From the IMG/VR virus record IMGVR_UViG_3300020420_000991, positions 1 through 26,591 of that record: a stretch of DNA of 26,591 nucleotides; one strand, given 5' to 3'. Origin of the DNA: a virus. The position numbers were made by a program, and so were the translations under genes. Each line of letters opens with the position of its first letter. Positions within the stretch are counted from its first letter, which is position 1. The notes beneath the pieces were generated by a model. That model searched no databases, was not told the origin of the DNA, and saw nothing but the letters and a program-made list of their open reading frames with translations. This document shows, one piece after another, positions 12,513 to 17,033 of this stretch.

Positions 12513-13469
12513 ATGACACAAGTAAAGATCAACGGTGACAACGTCAGAGCATATTTGCGTGACATCGGCCGCATACCTTTGCTGGAACACGAAGAAGAAA
12601 TCCTGTTGGGCCGGAAGGTTCAGAGGTTGATGGAGATTATTGGCAAGCGAGAAGAGCTCAAGGAAGAGCTTGGCAAGAGCTACAGCGAAGCAGCACTAGC
12701 CCGTAAGCTGGGTATATCGGATAAGCAGCTCAAGCGACAGATCAAAGAAGGTGAGCGTGCCAAGAACAAGATGGTCACCTCAAACCTGAGGCTGGTCGTC
12801 AGCGTTGCCAAGAAATACACAAAGCGGAATATGGAGCTGCTGGACATTATCCAGGAGGGGACGATCGGCCTGGTGCGTGGTGTGGAGAAGTTTGATCCAC
12901 AACGCGGCTACAAGTTCTCGACCTACTCCTACTGGTGGATCCGCCAGGGCATCACCAGAGCCATCGCAGAGAAGTCCAGAGCCATCCGTCTGCCCATCCA
13001 TATCACTGAGAACCTAAACAAGTTCAAGAAGGCACAGAGGCAGCTTTCACAGCTCAGTGGACGGATGCCAACGATCCGTGAGCTATCTGATGAGCTGAAT
13101 CTGTCAATCGATGAGATCAAGGACCTGATGTGCAAGGCACGTCAACCGACCTCACTGGAGGTTCGGATCGGTGAGAACCGTGACACGTCACTGATCGATT
13201 TGCTTGAGGACGAAGGTCCAATGCCTGTTGAGCAGCTGGAGAATGAATACATCAAAGACAACCTGAAGGCGTTGATCTCCGAGCTGCCTGAGCAGCAAGC
13301 TGCAGTGATCAGCATGCGCTATGGCATTGGGGATGGGATCCTCGAGCCTCTGTCAATGACTGCGATCGGGCAGATTCTGCACATGAGTAGAGACCGTGTG
13401 CGTAATTTAGAGCACAAAGCACTGCGCACTTTGAAAGAGACGAGTGGAAGTGTGGAGGAATACTTGTAA
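12513..13469 (+). CDS. Sigma-70 family RNA polymerase sigma factor (cyanobacterial SigA/group 2 type)
   Basis: 318 residues with all primary-type regions. Region 1.2 is at about 8-40 (VRAYLRDIGRIPLLEHEEEI). Region 2 is at 87-157, including LRLVVSVAKKY, LLDIIQEG and the DNA-melting/-10 stretch YKFSTYSYWWIRQGITRAI (133-151). Region 3 is at 160-220. Region 4 is at 245-310, with a helix-turn-helix near 281-303 (SMTAIGQILHMSRDRVRNLE). The N-terminus is typical of cyanobacterial sigma factors. It lacks the large acidic region 1.1. It should bind host RNA polymerase and redirect it, probably to phage late promoters. Codon use resembles the capsid genes. Its leader contains the hairpin at 12475-12498. 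Confidence 0.95.
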   Translation: MTQVKINGDNVRAYLRDIGRIPLLEHEEEILLGRKVQRLMEIIGKREELKEELGKSYSEAALARKLGISDKQLKRQIKEGERAKNKMVTSNLRLVVSVAKKYTKRNMELLDIIQEGTIGLVRGVEKFDPQRGYKFSTYSYWWIRQGITRAIAEKSRAIRLPIHITENLNKFKKAQRQLSQLSGRMPTIRELSDELNLSIDEIKDLMCKARQPTSLEVRIGENRDTSLIDLLEDEGPMPVEQLENEYIKDNLKALISELPEQQAAVISMRYGIGDGILEPLSMTAIGQILHMSRDRVRNLEHKALRTLKETSGSVEEYL

Positions 13470-14602: not shown

Positions 14603-15088
14603 TTAGTGCTTACATTCAGATCGTTTTCGACGCATGTAATTCTTGTTTGATTCCCGCTGACGCTCCTTAGCTTGTGCAGCCTGATCAGGAGTATTTTTAG
14701 GACGTCTTTGGTATTTATATTTCGTGTTGTTATCCTTTCGACTAATCCAGCGAAGGTTAGACACACAACAATTCGACTTGTCCTCATCAATATGATCAAT
14801 CATCGTGCATCCCTTAGAGATTCCATAGGGGGTAGGGGGTAGACCTAGAAAAGCAAATGCAACTAACTTATGTACACATACGTATAAAGGCGGCTTTCTT
14901 CCAATTCGTTGAGTAAGGGTGACCATGGGATAGCCAGCCTTATGGCGTTTATGCTTCAAGATGCGGTCACGATTTCCTTTAGTACTGCGAACCTCGCCGT
15001 CGCGGTTGACGTAGTATTCGATGCAACATTCAAAACCAGGCAAGGTGTGTATGGGAACCCATACGGTTGGATCTATAAATTGTTCCAC
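14603..15088 (-). CDS. HNH homing endonuclease with NUMOD4-like domain
   Basis: 161 residues from a GTG at 15088; the frame stays open a little further upstream, so the exact start is uncertain. Residues 10-60 follow the NUMOD4 pattern (W..I..LPGFE.....VNRDGEVRS) and HKLVAFAFLG follows at 73. The HNH core comes next: IDHIDEDKSN (97-106) and SNLRWISRKDNN (110-121), with the conserved D98-H99, N106, N111 and N120. The tail is very basic. Such enzymes nick or cut DNA and drive homing of themselves or of nearby introns. It is free-standing and starts about 100 bases from exon 1 of the intron-split MCP gene, on the opposite strand, as expected for collaborative homing. Confidence 0.9.
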   Translation of the reverse strand: MEQFIDPTVWVPIHTLPGFECCIEYYVNRDGEVRSTKGNRDRILKHKRHKAGYPMVTLTQRIGRKPPLYVCVHKLVAFAFLGLPPTPYGISKGCTMIDHIDEDKSNCCVSNLRWISRKDNNTKYKYQRRPKNTPDQAAQAKERQRESNKNYMRRKRSECKH

Positions 15089-15141: not shown

Positions 15142-15162
15142 AGTGAGACAGTCGAACTCACT
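15142..15162. promoter_or_regulatory. Inverted repeat upstream of the MCP gene
   Basis: AGTGAG at 15142-15147 pairs with CTCACT at 15157-15162 around a 9-base loop. It lies in the roughly 100-base region between the divergent HNH and MCP genes, which also has a TATTAT (15130-15135) that could be a -10. The role (leader hairpin or operator) is unknown. Confidence 0.35.
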
Positions 15163-15191
15163 TATATCATTAAGTTTACGGAGTTGTCCCT

Positions 15192-17033
15192 ATGTGGATT
15201 GACAACGATTAACAGACCGGTCGTTGTAAAACTGGGTGAATTGCTGGAACCCTAAGTCGAGAGATATGGCAATCAGCAGCGAAGCCTTAGGTACACCTAA
15301 GGAACGTTCACAGACTACCTGAGGAGTAAAGCCTCCTTAATAACAGGCACGAGCGCCCAGCCCTTATATAGGTGAAGATATAGTCGGAGCCCTGTGAAAG
15401 CAGAGGAATAACTCGTTCCCTAAACTTCTTGGTGCTGAGCTTTATCGTCCCCACCCGGCCTACATCATTGAGATGGCAGTTGAGCCTGTGGTGGTCCACG
15501 ATTTCTCTAAGCAGCCCGGTCAAACCGTGCAGCTGGACCGTTAACTCGATAGCGGTCTTTAAATTCCGTGAATTGCTGGAAAGCCCCCAAAAATTGGGTC
15601 AATCAGCAGCCAAGCCGTCTCACAGGATGGAAGGTTCAACGACTAGATCCCGAGAGGAAACTCAGTATTGGATCCACGAGCGCGGAACACTTTAATAAAG
15701 TGATGATATAGTCTGACCTACATCAATGGTAAAGATGTAGAACCTAGAGATAAAGAGCTCTAGGGATAACACTTGTATCGGTTCTGGGGAAAGCCTGGCA
15801 CTAAGGAGTCACGTGAGCGTACCGCAGATCAAACACTGGGTACAGCTTCCGCACGCAACATTGTGAAGGACAAGGTCCTCGTGTCGCTCAAAGAGTACAC
15901 AGGTCCTGCTGACACACGCGATGCAACTCAGCCTTCAACCTTTAAGGTTGCTCGCGAAACACTTATTACAGCGCAGCGTCTGCTGCTGGACACTGGAAAC
16001 CTCAACGTGTTCCACCAGTCCATTGGCTTAAAGAGTAGGCCCGCCTTTGCGTAAGCATTGAGCGATAACAGGGTGAATTGCTGGAAAGCCTCCAACTAAA
16101 GGCCAATCAGCAGCCAAGCCAGACCACAATCTGGAAGGTTCAACGACTAGATCCCGAGAGGAAACTCAGTAACGGATCCACGAGTGCCCTGCATCCCACC
16201 GGGATGAAGATATAGTCTGAACTACATCGATGGCAAAGATGTAGAACCAGAAGATAAAGAGCTTCTGGGATAACAACATTGCACTCACACTGCTGGATGA
16301 CTATCGCCGTTGGCGTGATCGCGTCTTTGCTAACGAACTGCTGAAAGCAGAAGCTAATGGCAAAGCCGATGAAGAGAAAGGTGGCTACTACCTGCCCGGT
16401 GGCAAAGAGAAGGGCGGTTCAGGCGGCACCCTGGGAGTTACATACTCAAACGGTGAGTCTGGAAAATTTGATGTAACCACAGACCTTCTGGGAGTGGTTA
16501 AGGACATGCGTAAGCGCAACGTCCCTACCTTCGCTGATGGTTATTACCGTTGCCTGGTTGATCCCACCGCAATGCTTCACCTTCGTCAGAATTCTGACTT
16601 CCGTGAGGTGGCACGTTATCCCGGTCAAGGTGTTGTGAACCCGATGCAACCGCATCTGGCTCCTAACGCTCATAACTACCTGGGCATGGGTCCTGCATAT
16701 GGTCAGGCCGGTTTCATCGCGGGCACTCCAGTAATGCCTTCGGGGTTCTTATTTGAGGGAGTTCGCTTCTTCGAATCCACCAACCTTCCGGAAACATCTT
16801 ACAACCTTGTGATCGCTGATGCCACTGCTGGCGCTGCTGATTACGGTGCTTCACAGATGATCTTCTTCGGACCTCAAGCCATCGGTGTTGGCATTGGTGG
16901 TAACAATGCTCAGATTCTTCTAAATAATAATGACGATTTTTCAAGATTTATAATAATGATCTGGTCCTTGTTTGCTGGTTTTGAAGTTCTCAATAAGGAC
17001 TTCATCACCGTTGGTTACTCTTTCGTATATTGA
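15192..17033 (+). CDS. Major capsid protein, split into four exons by three group I introns
   Basis: Exons 15192-15209, 15416-15541, 15776-16028 and 16282-17033 (18, 126, 253 and 752 bases) join in frame into 382 residues. The start MWIDND has a GGAG 8 bases upstream. The joins read MWIDND/FPKLLG, TVQLDR/YRFWGK and HQSIG(S)LTLLDDY. The last join splits a Ser codon. The protein resembles N4-gp56-like coats: an N-terminal HPAYIIEMAVEPVVV, a middle helix RETLITAQRLLLDTG, and GYYRCLVDPTAMLHLR with GFLFEGVRFFEST towards the end. It would form the capsid shell (HK97 fold expected). Introns 1 and 2 open with an in-frame TAA, so unspliced RNA cannot yield coat. The next gene, with a strong ribosome site, follows 16 bases later. 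Confidence 0.88.
15210..15415 (+). ncRNA. Group I intron 1 (206 bases)
   Basis: The 5' exon end ACAACGAT pairs with GTCGTTGT inside the intron (P1, with the splice-site U.G). The conserved core reads AATTGCTGGAA (P, about 15239), AATCAGCAGC (Q, 15271-15280), and GACTA (15313-15317) pairing with TAGTC (15381-15385) as P7. The last intron base is G15415, after which the coat frame resumes (TTCCCT). P10 is weak here, so the 3' end is fixed mainly by the terminal G and the frame. No ORF inside. It is diverged from introns 2 and 3. Confidence 0.85.
15542..15775 (+). ncRNA. Group I intron 2 (234 bases)
   Basis: P1 pairs exon GGACCGT with GCGGTC of the intron, with the U.G at the splice site. P10 pairs the 3' exon TATCG with CGATA just before that guide, five perfect pairs, which fixes the 3' end after G15775. 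Core: AATTGCTGGA at 15571-15580, AATCAGCAGC at 15601-15610, and P7 GACTA (15641-15645) with TAGTC (15709-15713). No ORF inside. It is very similar to intron 3. Confidence 0.92.
16029..16281 (+). ncRNA. Group I intron 3 (253 bases)
   Basis: P1 can form between exon GGCT plus the first intron bases and TAGGCC (6 pairs, U.G at the splice site). P10 pairs ACTC of the 3' exon with GAGT before the guide. Core: GAATTGCTGGAAAGCC near 16075-16090, AATCAGCAGCC near 16105, and P7 GACTA (16145-16149) with TAGTC (16213-16217). The exact 3' end (G16281) is inferred from alignment to intron 2, P10 and the reading frame. An earlier end near 16269 would also keep the frame but fits worse. Confidence 0.87.

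Follow-up and report, generated by a model that had tools for sequence, protein, structure and literature searches.

The major capsid protein (MCP) gene of a phage that is, by its sequence, an S-EIV1-like cyanophage, a virus of marine cyanobacteria, was found to be divided into four exons by three compact group I introns. We consider it close to certain that these three ribozymes excise themselves, leaving the four exons joined as mRNA that encodes a 382-residue MCP, and that the introns are mobile elements that were acquired separately. The gene lies on the + strand of the 26,591-nucleotide stretch of viral DNA analyzed here (the window). Its first exon (15192 to 15209) has only six codons, encoding MWIDND, and a GGAG Shine-Dalgarno-like motif lies a short way upstream. 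Naming insertion sites by codon and phase, intron 1 (15210 to 15415; 206 nt) occupies site 6.0, intron 2 (15542 to 15775; 234 nt) occupies site 48.0, and intron 3 (16029 to 16281; 253 nt) occupies site 132.1. Exon 2 (15416 to 15541) carries codons 7 to 48, exon 3 (15776 to 16028) carries codons 49 to 132 and the first base of codon 133, and exon 4 (16282 to 17033) runs from the rest of codon 133 to the stop.

The joined MCP belongs to phrog_1357, major head protein (E, 1.6e-18), and among phage records a single relative was recovered by tblastn, Synechococcus phage S-EIV1, with 66% identity over 100% of the length. The S-EIV1 MCP is one continuous gene by tblastn (KJ410740.1, 60859 to 61989, +). 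The S-EIV1 record (L206; KJ410740.1, 60784 to 62010) splits this gene in its annotation, with the 5' part given as a hypothetical protein on the minus strand, AHV82227.1, and the 3' part alone on the + strand, also as hypothetical. In IMG/VR, at least 598 of the 600 stretches examined bear a related MCP, and in the best 80 of these the protein is approximately 85 to 92% identical to the joined MCP and unbroken except for a few N-terminal introns. Elsewhere in the window, a phage-encoded sigma-70 factor with regions 1.2 to 4 (12513 to 13469, +) sits among the structural genes that precede the MCP gene, and a long ORF with many near-identical repeats (e.g., ALSGRLDVLEADPTT) runs off the contig (23756 to 26590, +) and probably encodes a fiber-like protein.

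All three introns are matched by the Rfam group I model RF00028, as an earlier note on this DNA had anticipated, at scores far above the gathering score of 50 bits: 15167 to 15406 (81.0 bits; E, 2e-19), 15532 to 15740 (78.6 bits; E, 1e-18), and 16020 to 16244 (79.3 bits; E, 7e-19), all on the + strand. The Rfam scan of the whole 26.6-kb window returned no match besides these three. A purpose-written spliced aligner, which scores codon matches together with a T before the intron and a G at the intron end, independently placed the boundaries exactly where that note had drawn them, with the same three lengths. Exact removal of the introns restores the 382-residue frame that had been proposed, identical in length and frame to the MCP that dozens of close relatives encode without interruption, the N terminus being MWIDND or MFIDND in most of these, and the empty sites of two relatives described below agree with it. 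The first junction (IDND/FPKL) is unbroken in 72 of the 80 nearest relatives and the other two (VQLDR/YRFW and HQSIG/SLTLL) in all 80; because the relatives' MCP reads without a break across the junctions, the three predicted joins are what these phages encode directly. The introns were also said to be free of internal ORFs, and none contains an ORF of note or a homing endonuclease. An in-frame stop occurs at the first codon of introns 1 and 2 (TAA in both) and at the ninth codon of intron 3, and unspliced RNA read from the MCP start codon would give at most a six-residue peptide.

The secondary structures are those of group I ribozymes. The P1 with its splice-site U.G and the GACTA/TAGTC pairing of P7 are present as described in the earlier note, and the covariance model aligns a P3-P8 core with the guanosine site of P7 in each intron. 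The 5' exons end in GAU, CGU, and GCU (introns 1, 2, and 3, respectively), with the terminal U paired to G in P1, and the introns end in CG, UG, and UG, the final base in each case being G. In intron 1, P1 is formed by ACAACGAU/gUCGUUGU and includes the U.G. P7 pairs 15313 to 15317 with 15381 to 15385 in intron 1, 15641 to 15645 with 15709 to 15713 in intron 2, and 16145 to 16149 with 16213 to 16217 in intron 3. The 5-pair P10 of intron 2 (CGAUA/UAUCG) and the 4-pair P10 of intron 3 were likewise recovered; no obvious P10 was seen in intron 1. Free folding of intron 1 with its exons is only 1.3 standard deviations better than that of shuffled sequences, too small a margin to be informative.

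Covariation was computed from an alignment of 12 related introns of the family to which introns 2 and 3 belong, whose consensus comprises P3, P4, P5, P6, P7.1/P7.2-like, P8, P9.1, and P9.2 helices. At 31 of the 50 consensus pairs, at least one sequence has both sides changed with pairing kept. P7 is invariant in the 12 introns and is therefore uninformative in this respect. The hairpin between P7 and P3', the P7.1/P7.2 trait of subgroup IA, covaries in this family, and a hairpin also folds at that position in intron 1; the introns are thus IA-like, an assignment made from the P7.1/P7.2 insert.

In comparison with a close relative (L205), the MCP exons have 65 synonymous and 17 nonsynonymous differences, a dN/dS of 0.068, from which it follows that the protein is under purifying selection despite its three interruptions. 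Since the helices covary and the exon dN/dS is only 0.07, we infer that splicing in vivo is very likely. The opposite reading, in which the gene is decaying or misassembled and the introns stay unspliced, has to contend with that same dN/dS and an intact frame, with the covariation of the intron helices, and with the recurrence of the same introns in the independent metagenome contigs L204 and L205; we consider it highly improbable. In the mechanism that we favor, the MCP gene would be transcribed with the three ribozymes inside it, each intron would fold and leave by two GTP-initiated transesterifications, and the four exons would be joined into the mRNA for the 382-residue capsid protein. 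The early in-frame stops would bar ribosomes from unspliced introns, and unspliced RNA would yield short peptides only. It would then follow, as the earlier note argued, that virion production hinges on how efficient the ribozymes are.

L204 and L205 were found by a search with the exon 1/intron 1 junction and are mostly 92 to 94% identical to the window. L204 has intron 1 only, sites 2 and 3 being cleanly empty, and L205 has introns 1 and 3, with site 2 cleanly empty, so that L204, L205, and the window form a natural allele series of one, two, and three introns. Intron 1 is identical at 206 of 206 positions in both relatives, and the 289 nt from 15150 to 15438 contain no mismatch to either, with approximately 6 to 8% of positions differing elsewhere; at a random 6% mismatch, the probability of 289 clean positions is near 1e-8, for a patch chosen after the fact. 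Around intron 3, which is 98.8% identical in L205, there are 5 mismatches to L205 in 507 nt (15791 to 16297). Homing with co-conversion leaves such a pattern and would account for both near-identical patches, although part of the low mismatch may stem from selection on the ribozyme. The complete identity of intron 1 and its flanks in phages that are 6 to 8% different elsewhere suggests that intron 1 homed recently.

Were the introns instead old, vertically inherited, and immobile, the differences among relatives would be losses. The three introns have no ORF of note, as this reading would expect, and the site of intron 2 is common to distant relatives (L086, L090, L106, L186, and L203). Against it stand the complete identity of intron 1 between otherwise divergent phages, the intact empty sites in most close relatives, and the affinities of intron 3, which shares 82% identity over 210 nt with nrdB introns (L184 and L169; the flank matches phrog_6799) and 78% with a group I intron (L152, 5985 to 6237, - strand) that interrupts an unrelated phage's capsid gene (phrog_247, major head protein). 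We judge old, purely vertical descent to be improbable. Because the kin of intron 3 sit in nrdB and in an unrelated capsid gene, the intron family moves between genes and between phage families.

The introns of the window's MCP gene belong to two lineages, since the site-6.0 introns, intron 1 of the window included, form one clade (support, 100/100) apart from the family of introns 2 and 3. Introns 2 and 3 are 80% alike over approximately 205 nt, and the tree leaves both in an unresolved fan. An intragenic duplication of intron 3 into site 48.0 was considered as the origin of intron 2 and rejected, given this fan and the closer match (82%) of intron 3 to the nrdB introns. Site 132.1 holds another intron in L433. 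The window's introns would be mobile elements of at least two lineages that entered separately and, most likely, spread into empty MCP alleles of co-infecting phages via homologous repair.

The enzyme and the route of this mobility can be approached through related introns. Longer MCP introns at sites 36.1, 48.0, and 107 contain sense-oriented LAGLIDADG_2 genes, and in those at 285, 30.2, and 139 the ORFs lie on the opposite strand. Antisense LAGLIDADG_3 was found in the two of these that were scanned (L186, 9756 to 10869, and the L281 intron at codon 30), and the antisense ORF in the L465 intron at codon 139 is a putative, endonuclease-like one. The introns at site 48.0 in L086, L090, and L106 are endonuclease bearing; as it shares their site, intron 2 of the window may have arisen from such an intron by losing the ORF, or it may be a passenger there. 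None of the MCP introns found at sites 6.0 and 132.1 carries an endonuclease. For mobility, we infer that the window's introns would need an endonuclease from elsewhere, for example from LAGLIDADG-bearing sister introns or from an adjacent HNH gene.

That gene, a free-standing NUMOD4/HNH homing endonuclease gene (14603 to 15088, - strand; PF13392, E, 1.8e-7; PF07463, E, 5e-5), is oriented opposite to the MCP gene, lies approximately 105 bp upstream of its start, and is a candidate helper for the introns. Collaborative homing is an established proposal, made for F-CphI and for a cyanophage psbA intron (PMC3984707); on this model, the HNH enzyme would cut empty MCP genes near codon 6 and so spread intron 1 and possibly others. 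The gene adjoins intron 1, and the near-identical patch in L205 takes in both. However, the identity patch in L204 ends short of the HNH gene, and the co-occurrence test was unsupportive, the gene lying upstream of MCP almost throughout the window's clade, intronless members included. Because it is present with or without introns, the HNH gene is unsupported as the specific driver of intron 1, and we regard collaborative homing as possible but doubtful.

The window is one case of a wider pattern. A search of IMG/VR with an intron-core pattern found more than a dozen S-EIV1-like MCP genes among the 120 matching stretches listed. In a sample blind to intron status, collected by a C-terminal MCP motif, 20 of the 99 complete MCP genes carry at least one intron (about 20%, for one motif-defined sample in database order and not a random draw of phages). 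Rfam directly supports the intron-bearing loci, including most of the N-terminal ones; intron counts are lower bounds because Rfam misses some endonuclease-bearing introns. At least 13 sites are occupied: 2.2 (L186, by inspection), 4.0, 6.0, 30.2, 35.2/36.1, 48.0, 88.1, 107.0, 132.1, 139.1, 144.0, 234.0, 285.0, and about 350. Five introns were counted in L186: four exceed the gathering score, and the fifth, which bears an endonuclease, is a partial match of 30.9 bits. L203 and L433 have four each. The introns sit at conserved parts of the MCP, with a mean residue conservation of 0.92 at 12 sites versus 0.81 at random positions (P, 0.0015). RF00028 matched only within the MCP gene, both in the full set of 120 sampled contigs (2.51 Mb) and in 35 large S-EIV1-like genomes (2.45 Mb), of which a few had been picked for their intron-bearing MCP; no match was found outside MCP in either set.

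Insertions 8 to 18 nt after the MCP start codon are the commonest class. An intron of L186 (12571 to 12992) apparently lies 8 nt past a probable TTG start, between TTGTTCGT and CGACAATGAT, an insertion point inside the expected footprint of an initiating ribosome. With introns in or next to this footprint and an early stop, capsid synthesis could begin only after splicing, and the MCP gene might be a dedicated target in which such introns gate capsid synthesis; we think this unlikely. If true, when or how much capsid protein is made would depend on the conditions for splicing.

The earlier note had called three introns in an MCP gene unusual; their group I identity stands, and the claim of rarity is tempered by published cases of multi-intron genes and of MCP introns. 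One is the crAss-like Zeta-group phage OLRF01000054, in which the MCP gene is broken into five fragments and three of the four gaps hold group I intron domains (PMC7886860). It is an unrelated phage of gut Bacteroidetes, its introns were recognized through the endonucleases they encode, and introns or inteins also occur in many further core genes of the Zeta group (PMC7886860); the introns of the window are compact, ORF-less, and confined to MCP. Staphylococcus phage Twort also has a virion structural gene with three group I introns, the tail tube gene orf142 (cited in PMC11878797); gene and phage are different, and experiments showed exon skipping in that case. In Bastillevirinae, DNA polymerase and terminase genes have up to three introns per gene. 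Group I or probable group I introns in phage MCP genes include that of mycobacteriophage LittleE, for which splicing was demonstrated by RT-PCR and N-terminal sequencing, and one in the capsid gene of lactococcal phage Tuc2009; both are single, and that of LittleE is approximately 820 bp with an endonuclease ORF (PMC3706429). The Jug phages of the gut have many compact group I introns (average, approximately 206 nt), 37 of 76 being confirmed by metatranscriptome reads, but theirs are spread over many genes, at 18.5 per genome (PMC12363816), and those of the window are in MCP only. S-EIV1 itself (KJ410740), despite its homologous MCP, has an unbroken gene and no RF00028 match in its genome. A search of the open-licence literature turned up no earlier description of introns in the MCP genes of S-EIV1-like phages. 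The window thus adds a cyanophage family and compact, ORF-less introns to the known cases and is no new kind of element; what appears to be new is the restriction to MCP, the frequency of introns, the number of sites, and the natural series of one-, two-, and three-intron alleles.

S-EIV1-like phages are abundant, as the at least 598 MCP-bearing matches in IMG/VR indicate, and their MCP gene has been invaded repeatedly by ribozymes, as no other gene has in the sampled contigs. The MCP gene is expected to be among the most highly expressed genes of a phage. Gene callers and surveys that use MCP as a marker would miss or truncate the capsid gene in approximately one-fifth of S-EIV1-like phages. 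Natural alleles with one, two, three, and up to five introns offer material for studying why introns become established in essential genes that are highly expressed, and how costly their splicing is.
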